Origin: Marinobacter daqiaonensis
GTDB taxonomy: Bacteria; Pseudomonadota; Gammaproteobacteria; Pseudomonadales; Oleiphilaceae
NCBI RefSeq assembly: GCF_900115285.1
Contig: NZ_FOYW01000001.1
Coordinates: forward strand, 1,895,272-1,959,271
DNA: 64,000 nt
Direction of reading: 5' to 3'
Shown here piece after piece: positions 20,662 to 27,330 of the stretch (positions are counted from its first letter, which is position 1; each line of letters opens with the position of its first letter). Below the pieces are notes generated by a model. It did not search any database. It had not been told where the DNA came from and saw nothing but the letters and a program-made list of their open reading frames with translations. A program made the position numbers and the translations under genes.

Positions 20662-20710
20662 GCCTCCCTCACCCGGTTCCAGTGAGCTTTGACCATCCAC
20701 TCGGCCCGCC

Positions 20711-20724
20711 AGGAGGGCGCCTTG
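20711..20724 (+). promoter_or_regulatory. Shine-Dalgarno that fixes a TTG start for fbpB
   Basis: AGGAGG followed 5 bases later by TTG (20722-20724). This consensus site supports the non-ATG start and removes 11 residues from the longest reading frame. Confidence 0.8.
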
Positions 20725-22401
20725 TCCGACATACAGACAACCCGCCCTTCCAGACGCCATCGTGTCCGCTGGCCGAACGCCTGGGCGTCAAGTACCTTTG
20801 TGGTCGCCATGCTGGTGGCAACGCCCGTTCTCGTCATCCTGGCTCATGTGTTTTTCCCTTCGGGGGACGTCTGGCAGCACCTGGCCAGCACGGTGCTGCC
20901 ACGCTATCTGACCAATACCGTGGTGCTGAGCCTGACGGTTGCCCTGGGCACCACTGTAATCGGCACTGCCTGCGCCTGGCTGGTGGTGATGTGCCGATTC
21001 CCCGGTCGCCGCCTGTTCGAGTGGGCGCTTCTGCTGCCACTGGCGGTCCCCACCTACGTGATTGCCTACGCCTACACCGACTTTCTGCAATTTGCCGGGC
21101 CCCTGCAGAGCACCCTGCGCGGATGGTTTGGCTGGGAATACGGTGACTACTATTTTCCCGAGATCCGGTCCCTGGGCGGCGCCTGTCTACTCATCACCAT
21201 GGTGCTCTACCCCTATGTGTATCTGCTTGCACGGGCGTCCTTTCTGGAGCAGTCGGTCAGTGCCCTTGATGTGAGCCGCACCCTGGGACTGGGGCCCTGG
21301 CGGATGTTCAGGCGGGTGGCACTGCCCCTGGCCCGGCCTGCCATTATTGGCGGGGTTTCCCTGGTACTGATGGAGACGCTCAACGAGTTCGGCGCGGTCC
21401 AGTTTTTTGGCGTTGACACCTTTACCACCGGCATCTACCGGACCTGGTTCGGGCTGGGGGAACAGGTCGCCGCTGCCCAGCTGGCGGCATGCCTGCTGGT
21501 GTTTGTTATGGTGATTGTGCTGTTGGAGCGGGCGTCACGGGGCGGTAAACGATACCATGCCCCGGTCCGCTACCAGGCCCTGCCGGAATACCGCCTGAGC
21601 CCCGGGCAGGCGGCCCTGGCCTTTGCGGTCTGTTTCTCCCCGGTCCTGATCGGGTTCGTGGTTCCTGCCGTGATACTGCTGGAAATGGCGATTACCACTG
21701 GGGACACCCTGCTGGGCACGCGCTTCCTGCCGTTCGCCGGCAACAGCCTGATTCTGGCGTCGGTCACCGCGCTTGTTGCCGTTACCCTCTCAGTACTTCT
21801 CAGTTACGGCGCCCGGCTGAGCGAAAGCCGCTGGGTCCGGGGTGCAAACCGGGTGGCGGCAATGGGGTATGCCATTCCCGGCTCCGTGATTGCCGTGGGA
21901 ATCTTGATCCCCCTGACCTGGCTGGACCAGAAGCTGAACCTCTTTCTTCGCGACAACTACGGATTCATGATCGGACTGATATTCAGCGGTAGCGCGTTCG
22001 TGCTGGTTTACGCCTACACGGTCCGTTTTCTTGCGGTGTCTTTCAATACCGTCGAGGCCAGCCTCGGCAAAGTCACGCCTTCGATGGACGCGGCCGCCCG
22101 GACACTGGGGCAGACTGCGGCTGGAACCCTTCGCAAAGTACACACACCCATCATGCGCAGCAGCCTTCTGGCGGCGGGAATTCTGGTGTTTGTGGACGTA
22201 ATGAAGGAGTTGCCCGCCACAATCATCCTCAGGCCGTTCAATTTCGACACCCTGGCGGTGCGTGCATACAGCCTGGCGTCTGATGAACGGCTGGCCGAGT
22301 CTGCACTGTCTTCCCTGTCCATCGTTGCGGTTGGCGTGATTCCGGTCATTCTACTCAGCCTGGCAATGCGCCATGGCCGGCCGGGTAGCAAGAAGGGCTG
22401 A
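20722..22401 (+). CDS. fbpB: Fbp/Afu-type ferric iron ABC transporter permease
   Basis: A 559-residue inner-membrane permease made of two fused MetI-like halves, as in FbpB. Each half has an EAA-type loop that contacts the ATPase (ARTLGQTAAGTLRKVHTPIM in the second; a matching SRTLGLGPWRMFRR block in the first). About 12 membrane helices are expected. The start is TTG 20722, because AGGAGG at 20711-20716 lies 5 bases before it. The longer TTG start at 20689 has no such site. It converges with the ATPase gene, leaving 6 bases between them. Confidence 0.9.
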   Translation: MSDIQTTRPSRRHRVRWPNAWASSTFVVAMLVATPVLVILAHVFFPSGDVWQHLASTVLPRYLTNTVVLSLTVALGTTVIGTACAWLVVMCRFPGRRLFEWALLLPLAVPTYVIAYAYTDFLQFAGPLQSTLRGWFGWEYGDYYFPEIRSLGGACLLITMVLYPYVYLLARASFLEQSVSALDVSRTLGLGPWRMFRRVALPLARPAIIGGVSLVLMETLNEFGAVQFFGVDTFTTGIYRTWFGLGEQVAAAQLAACLLVFVMVIVLLERASRGGKRYHAPVRYQALPEYRLSPGQAALAFAVCFSPVLIGFVVPAVILLEMAITTGDTLLGTRFLPFAGNSLILASVTALVAVTLSVLLSYGARLSESRWVRGANRVAAMGYAIPGSVIAVGILIPLTWLDQKLNLFLRDNYGFMIGLIFSGSAFVLVYAYTVRFLAVSFNTVEASLGKVTPSMDAAARTLGQTAAGTLRKVHTPIMRSSLLAAGILVFVDVMKELPATIILRPFNFDTLAVRAYSLASDERLAESALSSLSIVAVGVIPVILLSLAMRHGRPGSKKG

Positions 22402-22407
22402 AACCTG

Positions 22408-23523
22408 TCACTGCCTGAACATGAAGACCTTTGACATGTCCAGGCTCAGCGATACAGGCTGCCCTTCCGGTGGCAGAAACACACCTGGTACCCGGGCGTG
22501 CAGATGCATCTCCTGGCCTTCGGCACCGTGGGCACAGATATGCAACAGACTGCTGGAGCCCAGGAGCTTCGACATCACCACATGGCTGGCCTCCTGGTTC
22601 TGGCCGTCATCGGGCAGTGCGCTGACCCTGACGGCTTCCGGGCGAATCATCACGGTCACTTCACTGCCCTCGGGAAACCCGTGGGCCTGAAGATGCCCGA
22701 CAGGCGTCAGAACGGAACCATTGCGAACCGGACCGGTACACACGTTGACCCGGCCAAAAAAATTCACAACAAACGGGTCTGCCGGATTGCAATAGAGCTC
22801 CGCCGGAGCCCCCGTCTGAACCACCTGACCCTCACGCATCAGGGCGATGCGATCGGCCATGAACATGGCCTCTTCGGGATCATGGGTTACCAGTAACGTC
22901 GCCGTTCCCATCTCTTTGAGCACATGCAGAGTGTCATCGCGGATCTGGTCCCGCAGTCGCGCGTCCAGGCTCGAGAATGGCTCATCAAGCAACATCACGC
23001 GGGGGGCCGGGGCCAGTGCCCGGGCCAGTGCAACCCTCTGCTGCTGGCCACCGGAGAGCGTATGGGGATAGGCCTTGGCAAGCCCCGCCATGCCGAGGCG
23101 ATCCAGGAGGTGCATCGCCCGGGACTTGCGCTCGTGTTTCGGTAACGCCTGTAAACCGAAAGAGACATTCTCAAGTATGGTCAGATGGGGGAACAGCGCG
23201 GACTCCTGAAACGCGAGACCCACATTGCGCTGCTCGGGCGGGCGATGAACGTGACCAGGTGCCGCCACCAGATCGCCACCCAGAAATACGCTGCCTTCAG
23301 AGGGTGCCTGAAGGCCGGCCGCAACGCGCAACAGCGTGGTTTTACCGCAACCAGAGGGACCCAACAGGCAGACAACTTCACCGGCATTGATATGCAGACT
23401 GACGTCGGAAACCGCTTTGTGCTGGCCGAAGCGGCAGTGCACATGGTCAAGGGTCAGCACCGGCCTGGCCAGCTTCTCATCAAGCGGCAGGCTGCCAACA
23501 GACGTTCGTTGATAAGCGCTCAT
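22408..23523 (-). CDS. fbpC: Fbp-type iron ABC transporter ATPase
   Basis: A 371-residue cytoplasmic ATPase. Walker A is GPSGCGKTT, the Q-loop is AFQESALFPHL, the signature is LSGGQQQRVALARAL, Walker B is VMLLDEPFSSLD and the switch His is in LLVTHDPEEA. A C-terminal TOBE-like domain (about 240-371) includes VMIRPEAVRVS. These features match the FbpC/CysA/PotA group. Location between the FbpB-like and FbpA-like genes points to iron. It is transcribed against the permease and divergently from the binding protein, so the three subunits are not one operon. Confidence 0.9.
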   Translation of the reverse strand: MSAYQRTSVGSLPLDEKLARPVLTLDHVHCRFGQHKAVSDVSLHINAGEVVCLLGPSGCGKTTLLRVAAGLQAPSEGSVFLGGDLVAAPGHVHRPPEQRNVGLAFQESALFPHLTILENVSFGLQALPKHERKSRAMHLLDRLGMAGLAKAYPHTLSGGQQQRVALARALAPAPRVMLLDEPFSSLDARLRDQIRDDTLHVLKEMGTATLLVTHDPEEAMFMADRIALMREGQVVQTGAPAELYCNPADPFVVNFFGRVNVCTGPVRNGSVLTPVGHLQAHGFPEGSEVTVMIRPEAVRVSALPDDGQNQEASHVVMSKLLGSSSLLHICAHGAEGQEMHLHARVPGVFLPPEGQPVSLSLDMSKVFMFRQ

Positions 23524-23673
23524 AGGATCGATCCAGCTTTATTCACAGATAGCCCAGCGTACTGGATTTTAAATCCGGTTGCTCCCCAATTTGAATTGAT
23601 TTTCTGATTGATATTGATTCCGGTTCATTGACTTTTCAGGCAGGTTTCGATTTACTGACGCTCAAACGGAAAT

Positions 23674-23687
23674 GGTTATCAATAACC
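23674..23687. promoter_or_regulatory. Inverted repeat upstream of fbpA
   Basis: GGTTATCAATAACC is a perfect 6-bp inverted repeat with a 2-base centre, 43 bases before the fbpA start. It may be an operator. It does not fit the Fur consensus (about 9 of 19 positions). Confidence 0.3.
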
Positions 23688-23729
23688 CTGTTTAAAACAC
23701 CTATGGGCAGACTTCAGGAGATTAATGCT

Positions 23730-24752
23730 GTGCTATCCCTCAAAGTAAAATTCATGACAGTTGCGCTGGCTGCAACTACGGCGGCAGCCAACGTGTCCGC
23801 GAGTGAAGTCAATCTGTATTCCGCTCGCCACTACGATTCCGACCAGGTCATCTACGATGCATTTACCGAGGCAACCGGCATCAAGGTCAACCTGATCGAG
23901 GGCAAGTCCGATGCCCTGATCGAGCGCATCAAGCGCGAGGGCGTCGCCAGCCCCGCTGATGTCCTGATAACGGTGGATGCCGGCAACCTGTGGCGGGCCG
24001 ATCAGGAGGGCGTGTTTCAGGCGGTGGACTCCGGGGTGCTCAAGGACCGTCTGCCAGATCAACTGAGGCATCCGGACGGTCACTGGTTTGGCTTCAGCCA
24101 GCGTCTCCGGGTTATTTACTACAACCGCGAGGATTTTGACCCATCCCAGATCAGCACCTACGAAGATCTTGCGAAGCCCAAATTCGACGGTGAAATCTGC
24201 ATCCGCTCCTCCACCAACATCTATAACCAGTCGCTGCTGGCCAGCCTGGTTGAGCACCATGGTGCGGAAGAAGCAGAAGAATGGGCCAAGGGTGTTGTCA
24301 ACAACATGGCCAGGGATCCCCAGGGCGGCGATACCGATCAGATCCGTGCCGTTGCCGCGGGTGAATGCAATCTGGCGGTAGGTAACCACTATTACTATGC
24401 CCGTCTGCTCAACTCGGACGACGTGGCCGATCGCGAAGTCGCCCGTAAAGTCGGTATCATCTTCCCTAACCAGTCCGGACGCGGGGTTCACGCGAATATC
24501 GGCGGAGCAGGCGTGGTTGCGACGGCACCCAATCGTGAAAACGCCGTCCGCTTCCTTGAGTTTCTCGCCTCGCCCACGGCACAGGAGGTTTTCGCTGGAA
24601 GCAATCACGAGTACCCGGCCGTAGAGGGTGTACTTGCGAACCCGGTTCTGGACTCCTGGGGTAACCTGAACATCGATGACGTCAATGTCAGCGTACTTGG
24701 TGAGAACAACCCCGAAGCGGTGCGGATTTTTGACCGGGCCGGATGGCGCTGA
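23730..24752 (+). CDS. fbpA: Ferric iron-binding periplasmic protein
   Basis: A 340-residue class of periplasmic transferrin-like proteins. The start is GTG 23730, preceded by AGGAG at 23716-23720. This gives a short signal peptide (LKVKFMTVALAATTAAANVSA) with an AxA-type cleavage before SEVNLYSARHY, the normal FbpA mature start. The iron-binding tyrosines are in GNHYYYARLL, and an earlier YSARHY supplies a further candidate ligand. ENAVRFLEFLASPTAQEVFA is a conserved C-terminal block. An intrinsic terminator follows, so it is monocistronic. Confidence 0.92.
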   Translation: MLSLKVKFMTVALAATTAAANVSASEVNLYSARHYDSDQVIYDAFTEATGIKVNLIEGKSDALIERIKREGVASPADVLITVDAGNLWRADQEGVFQAVDSGVLKDRLPDQLRHPDGHWFGFSQRLRVIYYNREDFDPSQISTYEDLAKPKFDGEICIRSSTNIYNQSLLASLVEHHGAEEAEEWAKGVVNNMARDPQGGDTDQIRAVAAGECNLAVGNHYYYARLLNSDDVADREVARKVGIIFPNQSGRGVHANIGGAGVVATAPNRENAVRFLEFLASPTAQEVFAGSNHEYPAVEGVLANPVLDSWGNLNIDDVNVSVLGENNPEAVRIFDRAGWR

Positions 24753-24810
24753 TACCGCCGCGACACAATTAACAGGAAAACCTTCGGAACGGGATGTTCC
24801 AACACAAGAG

Positions 24811-24843
24811 GCTGGTACTGCGTTCGCGGTGCCAGCTTTTTTT
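24811..24843 (+). terminator. Intrinsic terminator after fbpA
   Basis: An 11-bp stem (24811-24821 with 24826-24836, two G-U pairs, GTTC loop) followed by seven T. It lies 58 bases past the fbpA stop and separates fbpA from the tautomerase gene. Confidence 0.88.
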
Positions 24844-24955
24844 ATGGTGCGCAGCTTACGGCCCTTCCCGGACCAAAGCCCTATTCAAAACCCCAGTGGC
24901 GTGACCGACAATGCTACCTGGCAGCCTTGAACAGCAAAATGACAAAGGAGGCTTT

Positions 24956-25402
24956 ATGCCAACCTATAAAGTCACGACCGCTAACCTGGCACTCTCGCAG
25001 AAACAGAAATCACAAATCGCGAGTGCGATAACAACAGCCCATCATTCCCAAACAGGCGCACCCGGATTTCTTGCCCAGGTTTTCTTCTCTTCAACCGATG
25101 GCGGCGATCACTTTATCGGTGGTTCCGTGAACGTCAAATCCCATATTTTCGTTTCCGGCCTGATCCGACAGGGGCGCAGCGCGGATATCAAGCAGAAGCT
25201 GATGGACACTATTCTCAGGCAGGTAAGCCTGATTGCCGGTATATCCGTGGAGGACATATGGATTTACCTCCAGGAGATCCCTTCCGTCCAGATGATCGAG
25301 TTCGGGCGTTTTCTGCCCGCCCCGGGGGAGGAGGAGGAATGGAAACGGGGACTTTCTCCAGAGAAGCAGGCTGACCTGGCAAATGCCAACGTTTTTCTGT
25401 AA
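24956..25402 (+). CDS. Tautomerase superfamily protein, cis-3-chloroacrylic acid dehalogenase-like
   Basis: A 148-residue protein that would start with a free Pro after Met removal. ATG 24956 follows AAAGGAGG, a near-ideal ribosome-binding site. Counting Pro as 1, it has Pro1, His28, Arg70, Arg73, Tyr103 and Glu114, the six residues known to be catalytic in cis-CaaD, at the same numbers. It also shares the blocks FLAQV, IFV.GL.R.GRSAD and EFGRFLP. cis-CaaD hydrolytically dehalogenates 3-chloroacrylate; the homologue Cg10062 has the same residues but acts poorly on that substrate and hydrates acetylenecarboxylate. The native substrate here is unknown. It is a single gene, convergent with the depolymerase. 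Confidence 0.85.
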   Translation: MPTYKVTTANLALSQKQKSQIASAITTAHHSQTGAPGFLAQVFFSSTDGGDHFIGGSVNVKSHIFVSGLIRQGRSADIKQKLMDTILRQVSLIAGISVEDIWIYLQEIPSVQMIEFGRFLPAPGEEEEWKRGLSPEKQADLANANVFL

Positions 25403-25513: not shown

Positions 25514-26608
25514 TTAATAGTTATAGGCCGGGCCGTAGGCACCCGAATAATTGTCGGCACAACTGCTGCTGCAGGTCGTGGAAAGCATCCGATGGATGAT
25601 GGCTCCGGTATTTGAGCGAGAGTGAAAGTGACCAACGCCATCGATGTCGCCGCCATCCTTGACGGTCAGCATTCCGTCAGCCCAGTCCCAGTCGTACTGG
25701 GTGGCGTAACTGCCGGTGCCAACATCCACCTGGGCAATGACGTTGCTATCGCTGTTGAAGTCGGGGCCATATCCACAGTAGTCCCAGCCGGTTGTGGTGG
25801 AGCAATGTATCTGGTCATGCCAGCCGGCACTGATCGTGTAGAACCGGATGCCTGAATGAACTCCGGGCATGTTGCGCATGGAGCGACGGGTACCAGTGCC
25901 TGTCCAGTCATTGTTGACGTACACACCGCCGTACCATCCTTCCTTGAAGAAGCCGAACACGTACTTGTCGTAGGCGTTTTGACTGCCGCAGGTCTTGGCG
26001 TATGGGTTTGCATATCCGGTGTAATAGCAGGAGTGCAGGCCGCGAAGACCGCCGGCGATATTTACGAAGCGGCGAATATCGCCGTGGGTGCCATAGTATT
26101 CAAGAGCGGCCAAGGTCTGAGACACGCCCATGGAGTGGGATACAATATCAACTTTGCTCGCACCGGTGTAGGCCTTCACTTCCTTGATAAACTTGGCAAT
26201 GATGTAATATTTGGATGACTGATGGTAGTTATCCGGCGCCCCGTCAGATCCCTGCTCGCTGCTGTGGAGCCAGGTCACACCGAAAAGCTCGCTGTCATTG
26301 TAGCCGGCGGCTTTAAAATGGTCGTACACGGAATGCGGAGCCTTGCTGTAGCCGGGAACCTGGAATGTGGGACTGTCCCAGCCCAGCGCACTGTCGGCAT
26401 TACCGTGAATAAAGACGACCGGCACCTTGGAGGCGGTATTGTTGTCACCGCCAAAGCCACCATAGCCGACAGTGGGGCTGAACCCGCCGCCGAACTGGAA
26501 TGCCTCCCCGGAACAGAACTTGCCATCGAAACTGCCGCAGTTAAGCGCGAATGCCGTTTGTGCGGTTAATGCAAACAGCAATACCGCGATCAAGGATAGA
26601 AATTTCAT
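25514..26608 (-). CDS. Extracellular PHB depolymerase / lipase-fold esterase, PhaZ7-like
   Basis: A 364-residue secreted alpha/beta hydrolase. ATG 26608 gives a 21-residue signal peptide ending QTAFA. The mature start LNCGSFDGKFC, the GYGGFGG block, VVFIHGN, ELFGVTWLHSSEQGS, the nucleophile motif VSHSMGVS, RRFVNIAGGLRGLHSCYYTGYA, the ISAGWHDQIHC Asp region and GVGHFHSRSNTGAII with the His all line up with PhaZ7 of Paucimonas lemoignei, which degrades amorphous PHB. The likely triad is Ser138 (mature numbering), the Asp in HDQIHC and the His in GVGHF. The longer frame to 26728 lacks a signal and was rejected. It is monocistronic. Confidence 0.85.
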   Translation of the reverse strand: MKFLSLIAVLLFALTAQTAFALNCGSFDGKFCSGEAFQFGGGFSPTVGYGGFGGDNNTASKVPVVFIHGNADSALGWDSPTFQVPGYSKAPHSVYDHFKAAGYNDSELFGVTWLHSSEQGSDGAPDNYHQSSKYYIIAKFIKEVKAYTGASKVDIVSHSMGVSQTLAALEYYGTHGDIRRFVNIAGGLRGLHSCYYTGYANPYAKTCGSQNAYDKYVFGFFKEGWYGGVYVNNDWTGTGTRRSMRNMPGVHSGIRFYTISAGWHDQIHCSTTTGWDYCGYGPDFNSDSNVIAQVDVGTGSYATQYDWDWADGMLTVKDGGDIDGVGHFHSRSNTGAIIHRMLSTTCSSSCADNYSGAYGPAYNY

Positions 26609-27330
26609 TGTCACGAATCTCCAGTTGTTTTTGTTATGCGAGATATTGGGGGTGAAGCACCCCCGCCCGAGAGATCCGTCTGCCCGCGCTCTGTGAGCAT
26701 TCCTTGTTGAATTTCCCCTTCCCTGCATTCGGCCACTTCGTAGCCCTGCCGGAACTTATCTTCCCTTAAGCGTTCTCGTATCCGCGTGCTGGCTCTCTAT
26801 TGCTTCCGGCACTATCGTTTTACTTGAGTCTAGATCAATCCGACCGCAAACGTTAACAACCTAGTCAAAGGTCTCATCGCCATGTCCACGGCATCGCTTC
26901 GGAAGATCATTGCTACTCCGCCACCACTTCATAAACCTGTGCGAAAAGCGACAGAATGCCGCTGTTACTCTCGCGCCAGACGCGTAATGCATCTTCGAGG
27001 ATCGGGGGAATCAGAGAAGTATCGATAGAGTCAGATCATTCGACCAATATCGTCTGGATGATTCTGTCCGCGGAGGAAGCCCTAGCGTGCAGCAGCCGCA
27101 TTCGGAGTGTCATATTTGAAGAATACTTTGCGGCTGAGGAAGGGATCAGCAAAACACCCTGCGCTAAGCCGGTGTAATCGCACTGCTGGCGGCCGCTGCC
27201 ATCGTGCCCCTTGCGTGCCTTTGCCTAAATTGCGAATAGCTGGTGCTTTAAACGTGGCTACCAGGATCCGATTCCAGTCCGTACATCCTGGTTCAAGGTC
27301 GAAGGATCTGTCCCGGGTTAAAAAAGCGAA
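26609..27330. other. 722-base region without a convincing gene
   Basis: Short frames exist (26956-27177 and 27107-27388), but their translations are basic, Cys/Arg/Ser-rich and family-less, with no ribosome-binding site. Base composition is more AT-rich than the surrounding genes. The left end must hold the promoter of the PHB depolymerase gene. Nothing else is recognisable. Confidence 0.5.

Follow-up and report, generated by a model that had tools for sequence, protein, structure and literature searches.

Does a protein that carries the complete active site of cis-3-chloroacrylic acid dehalogenase (cis-CaaD) act on haloacrylates? The question is raised by a gene at 24956..25402 on the + strand of the window, the whole 64,000-nucleotide stretch of Marinobacter daqiaonensis DNA analyzed here, for which a dehalogenase or hydratase function had been proposed from the letters alone. 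The CDS belongs to the cis-CaaD subgroup (Tautomerase_3) and comprises 148 codons including Met, plus a stop codon, with a protein that starts MPTYKV. An alternative in-frame ATG is located upstream at 24911. Since homology begins only at MPTY and a Shine-Dalgarno-like AAAGGAGG (24944..24951, + strand) lies 4 nt 5' of the ATG at 24956, the latter was assigned as the start, and the ribosome-binding site that had been attributed to the gene was thereby recovered. Pro directly follows Met, giving an N-terminal Pro1 upon the predicted removal of Met. The GC content is 53% for the gene versus 60% for the window. The host, previously described as a marine-type genome, is indeed a Marinobacter, and the nearest relative, G861, belongs to the same genus.

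In order to place the protein, comparisons of domain, sequence and predicted fold were performed. The protein scored 46.6 bits with Pfam Tautomerase_3 (PF14832), whose cut-off is 25.7, and no NCBIfam model scored above its own cut-off. The nearest solved sequences in a phmmer search of the PDB were cis-CaaD (2flt, E 2.7e-31) and Cg10062 (3n4g, E 2e-29). An ungapped comparison with 2flt yielded 62 identities in 140 positions (44%), whereas 2000 shuffles of the window protein gave no more than 19; for Cg10062, 54 of 144 positions were identical. Within the gap-free alignment Pro1, His28, Arg70, Arg73, Tyr103, and Glu114 fall at the cis-CaaD numbers, bearing out the central observation of the sequence-only reading, and the equal length that it reported is nearly correct (147 residues after Met versus 149 in the 2flt chain). 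The AlphaFold monomer model had a pLDDT of 91.3. Among the 50 Foldseek matches listed, 2flz had the lowest E-value (1.4e-17, TMq 0.86), and one of the highest TM scores belonged to native Cg10062 (3n4g_A, TMq 0.92). Judging by their titles, some deposited structures capture covalent intermediates of acetylenecarboxylate hydration in variants of cis-CaaD and Cg10062, suggesting that the machinery shared by these two enzymes takes more than one substrate. These results support assignment of the window protein to the cis-CaaD subgroup of the tautomerase superfamily, a member that could in principle perform Pro1 hydration chemistry.

The diagnostic value of the active site depends on how common it is. 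Excerpts of PMC5818174 name the six residues as the catalytic set of cis-CaaD and state that fungal members make up most of the subgroup; the rows sampled here are other than fungal. The 68 core rows comprise 31 from Marinobacter (window included), Microvirga, f221 (which holds Caballeronia), f236, named plasmid rows, the two founders cis-CaaD and Cg10062, and 7m58. All six residues were complete in 57 of the 68 rows, including the window and both founders (56 of 67 without Cg10062, whose Pro1 was added to the alignment by hand), and the earlier statement that Cg10062 shares them agrees with this alignment. The 11 exceptions were eight f221 rows with Ala1, L011 with Arg70Gly, L101 with His28Gln, and 7m58, for which the aligned sequence lacks the first residues. 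Within the 32 Marinobacter and Microvirga rows the six residues were invariant except for one Arg70Gly, and Tyr103 was absent from all six distant rows (0/6). The sequence blocks that had been cited as shared with cis-CaaD are both present; GRSAD is scarce (3 of 68 core rows, namely the window, cis-CaaD, and L075), whereas GRFLP is widespread (33 of 68).

L011 (G056, 1501-1929, - strand) is a natural active-site variant, a Marinobacter copy, otherwise intact, in which Arg70 is replaced by Gly. The eight rows with Ala in place of Pro1 (L029, L030, L085, and L087-L091) come from one f221 genus with genomes of about 2 Mb and retain the other five residues; tautomerase superfamily members lacking Pro1 are mentioned in the excerpts of PMC5818174.

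Position 34 was Ala in the window protein and in 62 of the 65 rows read by ungapped index, among which Thr34 occurred only in the founder cis-CaaD; a simulation study singles out T34 (PMC11641302). Cg10062 ('CgX') has the six residues and is described in the excerpts of PMC5818174 as an inefficient and not fully cis-specific cis-CaaD. With the set complete in 57 of 68 rows and Cg10062 a poor dehalogenase, the six residues tell the family and not the substrate. The proposed dehalogenase or hydratase function is supported as far as Pro1 hydration chemistry in principle is concerned; the step from a complete active site to a haloacrylate dehalogenase is not, given these two results and Ala34.

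To gain a view of the relationships within the subgroup, two trees were compared. In the 74-row tree the window protein grouped with M. salicampi, then with other Marinobacter, then with Microvirga (100/99), and cis-CaaD formed a long branch among f221 and plasmid (Burkholderiaceae) rows, a grouping with 99/94 support, with Cg10062 elsewhere. In the 45-row tree, built without the distant rows, cis-CaaD and the window clade were sisters with weak support (42/76), and the program warned of meeting long branches. In the AU test, a tree constrained to hold cis-CaaD with the f221 rows was worse by 0.03 log units (p 0.497), and one constrained to place Cg10062 and 7m58 with the window clade was worse by 16.7 (p 0.089). 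The Marinobacter and Microvirga clade was recovered in both trees with 100/99 support. Based upon these trees and AU costs, the window lineage is phylogenetically distinct and a grouping of Cg10062 with it is disfavoured. The alignment and tree proposed as a check thus set the protein in its own clade apart from Cg10062, and the placement of cis-CaaD differs between trees.

The neighbourhood of the gene is consistent with a stand-alone transcript. Upstream genes, from Pfam and the ORF list, encode a permease (20689-22401, +) and an ATPase (22408-23523, -), followed by an ABC solute-binding protein (Pfam SBP_bac_6/8; 23628..24752, +) which we take to be FbpA-like. Folding placed a Rho-independent terminator-like hairpin with a T run 3' of the binding-protein gene and ahead of the tautomerase gene (24806..24843, about 24800-24850, + strand; z -4.98 versus 200 shuffles); the same hairpin is missing from the output of a consensus terminator scan. 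Downstream, a class 2 lipase gene by Pfam (25514..26728, - strand) is convergent. The strong hairpin after the upstream gene and the lipase on the opposite strand suggest that the tautomerase gene is probably monocistronic, in agreement with the prior remark that it is not part of an obvious catabolic operon. That consensus scan likewise listed no promoter of the sigma-70 type for the + strand between 24600 and 25560, Pfam identified no halogen gene among the six neighbouring proteins scanned, and PADLOC returned no match for a defence function.

Furthermore, the genome was searched for pathway partners. Nothing of the MSAD type (Tautomerase_2, PF14552) scored above the cut-off in the window genome; a second weak PF14552 match is a small lone 4-OT-like gene, also the sole PF01361 match in the genome, and the PF01361 search found no CaaD-type gene pair. 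One dehydrogenase exceeded the cut-off of TIGR01722 (semialdehyde dehydrogenase), with ten others below it, and its neighbours, judged by eye, are enoyl-CoA hydratase-like, 3-hydroxyisobutyrate dehydrogenase-like, and acyl-CoA dehydrogenase-like, and look like valine catabolism. The suggested link to naturally halogenated marine compounds is conceivable but speculative and finds no support in the genome, which showed no MSAD gene above cut-off, no CaaD-type pair, and no halogen gene in the six neighbours.

The distribution of the gene is patchy. Among 124 Marinobacter genomes (110 with at least 90% completeness and at most 5% contamination), 40 had a match, of which 33 were full-length, five had broken copies only, and two (G020 and G050) had distant homologues only, leaving 91 genomes lacking a full-length copy. 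The broken-only genomes were G017, with an internal stop, G005, lacking a start and with His28 changed, and G004, G039, and G054, with fragments. Across the Marinobacter loci, the broken or fragmentary copies are L010, L016-L019, and L025. An extra partial copy was present in G017, G853, G854, and G889, and two full copies in G010. Searches outside the genus at E 1e-10 recovered a relative in 1 of 368 other genomes of the class sample (a distant row without Tyr103), in 8 of 398 of the phylum sample (two of these being Marinobacter and one the window's own genome), in 21 of 249 f221 genomes, and in 10 of 199 f236 genomes; a run without a positive control found none in 248 f20 genomes. Relatives also occurred in 13 plasmid records, from which the taxon names outside Marinobacter derive, and a single-sequence contig scan returned one relative. 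Caballeronia was placed in f221 because the match in G1125 has coordinates identical to those in the C. insecticola plasmid. A single-sequence query of viral contigs returned no relative, and phage carriage was dropped as a candidate on this basis.

Intact copies are under purifying selection, with a median dN/dS of 0.17 (169 of 210 pairs with dS < 1.5, from 21 sequences, the pairs not being independent). Together with the patchy distribution, this value suggests that the gene is optional yet selected where it is kept, and the loss of Arg70 in one full-length copy along with the five genomes that have broken copies only suggests that the function is dispensable in some species. Searches of the open-licence literature turned up no paper dealing with a cis-CaaD homologue from Marinobacter or with the repeat described below.

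Comparison of 21 Marinobacter loci from 18 genomes (G017, G010, and M. salicampi being represented twice) revealed widely varying neighbours. A phosphodiesterase gene was found in 12 of the 21 stretches, in varied order and with fragments of neighbouring genes. No conserved partner gene pointing to a substrate was present in the loci compared; a conserved operon was likewise considered and dropped, as the Marinobacter loci showed none. A 16-base motif, CCGGGACAGATYTATT, was present in seven of ten chosen genomes at 4 to 11 copies each; the window genome, G011, and G028 have none, and the reversed-pattern control gave zero. It clusters at the tautomerase locus in G037, G004, G054, and G056, lies some kilobases from the gene in G017, is scattered away from it in G036, and forms a cluster without the gene in G026. 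The motif abuts Y1_Tnp (IS200-like) transposase sequence. Transposase-associated repeats thus look like they scramble the region in several relatives, not in the window. Integron cassettes, an idea suggested by the clustered short motif, were dropped given the mixed gene orientation and the abutting Y1 (IS200-like) transposase pieces. Scrambled loci of small genes with the repeat GAAAACCGGGACAGATYTATTTT are frequent in the main Marinobacter clade (L004-L019, L037-L047, L056-L070, L114-L118), the motif occurring in 29 of 105 loci; this repeat lies against Y1_Tnp (IS200-like) transposase genes or fragments of them, and related sequence often follows the tautomerase stop codon.

Outside Marinobacter, single neighbours recur in the stretches compared: 3 of 29 loci have a neighbour from an MFS transporter cluster and 4 of 29 one from a MarR-regulator cluster. 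Pfam scans of three MarR-cluster neighbours identified MarR in L079 and L082 and gave no match for L096, which is assigned by similarity only. In some f221, plasmid, and f236 loci the homologue thus adjoins a MarR-type regulator (L079, L082, L096) or an MFS transporter (L073, L078, and L082), a hint of small-acid metabolism that is inducible. An LMWPc gene (low-molecular-weight phosphatase-like, perhaps an arsenate reductase; Pfam on L029 only) adjoins the homologue in L029 and L088 and is near it in L081.

The reading favoured here, at a probability of about 0.62, is that the gene stands alone and encodes a cis-CaaD-subgroup protein in its own Marinobacter and Microvirga lineage, an accessory and non-essential Pro1 hydratase/tautomerase for which dehalogenation is at most a side activity, with possible side activity on 3-haloacrylate or propiolate. 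By analogy with cis-CaaD and Cg10062, the enzyme would be a trimer. Arg70, Arg73, and His28 would bind the carboxylate group of a small alpha,beta-unsaturated acid, water would be activated to attack C3 by Glu114 together with Tyr103 of the adjacent subunit, and C2 would receive a proton from the N-terminal Pro1. Acting on 3-haloacrylate or propiolate, such an enzyme would form malonate semialdehyde; a different natural substrate would be converted into a hydrated or tautomerised acid.

A physiological cis-3-haloacrylate dehalogenase, as a step in a marine pathway for C3 acids that are halogenated in nature, is highly improbable. Although all six residues are present, identity to cis-CaaD exceeds that to Cg10062, one tree pairs cis-CaaD weakly with the window clade, and the positions within 1-125 at which the founders differ are cis-CaaD-like at 23 (including 32, 33, 37, 39, 54, 55, 64, 67, 68, 74-76, 118, and 120) versus Cg10062-like at 15 (including 34, 35, and 69), the residues are generic to the subgroup and Thr34 is replaced by Ala34. 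The lack of an MSAD-type gene above cut-off and the presence of only a lone 4-OT-like gene, the valine-catabolism-like setting of the sole dehydrogenase passing TIGR01722, the halogen-free neighbours scanned, and the 91 of 124 genus genomes without a full-length copy likewise argue against it. A Cg10062-like hydratase (or decarboxylase) for propiolate, other alkynoates, or allenes would account for the same six residues, for Ala34-Pro35 in both proteins, and for a predicted fold nearer 3n4g_A (TMq 0.92, rmsd 1.5) than 2flz_A (0.86, 2.3). This alternative is nonetheless unlikely, as Cg10062 falls in a different clade in both trees (the AU test giving no rejection) and the window protein matches cis-CaaD, not Cg10062, at 32, 33, 54, 55, 67, and 68 among others.

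The patchy, scrambled, and at times broken copies, with repeat-rich loci in several relatives, could also reflect a plain tautomerase or a near-neutral accessory gene in a fluid genome region, lacking a hydratase role. In intact copies dN/dS is low and the catalytic residues hardly vary, which is at odds with this, as is the retention of Glu114 and of Tyr103, the latter found in none of the distant rows, and it is considered very unlikely. A bolder proposal, that Marinobacter and Microvirga form a third separate six-residue lineage that naturally hydrates or dehalogenates a small unsaturated acid of marine origin, and that the gene is selected, stand-alone, dispensable, and shuffled by transposase-associated repeats, is quite unlikely.

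The active site was correctly read, and a known subgroup gains another member. A complete six-residue site is the common state of the subgroup in the sampled rows and is unusable as evidence for a dehalogenase. The 31 natural Marinobacter homologues, one with Arg70Gly, provide material for asking which changes made the founder cis-CaaD a proficient dehalogenase. Beyond these two points, the gene is ordinary.

Among known systems, cis-CaaD resembles the window protein in its six catalytic residues, length, fold, and identity (62/140), but has Thr34 where the window protein has Ala34, and its pathway partners (MSAD- and CaaD-type genes) were not found in the window genome. Cg10062 (CgX; Corynebacterium glutamicum, PDB 3n4g) shares the six residues, Ala34-Pro35, and a high TM score, but differs in its separate clade and lower identity (54/144). 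N1 (PDB 7m58), of the cis-CaaD family, has five of the six residues as in the window protein over the part of the chain compared, which lacks the start; it is identical at 45 of 134 positions and groups with Cg10062 (100/91). Linker 1 Ps01740 (PDB 5uif) has Pro1, His28, the two Arg positions, and the Glu position as in the window protein, but Ala101 replaces Tyr103, and the excerpts of PMC5818174 describe it as lacking cis-CaaD activity.
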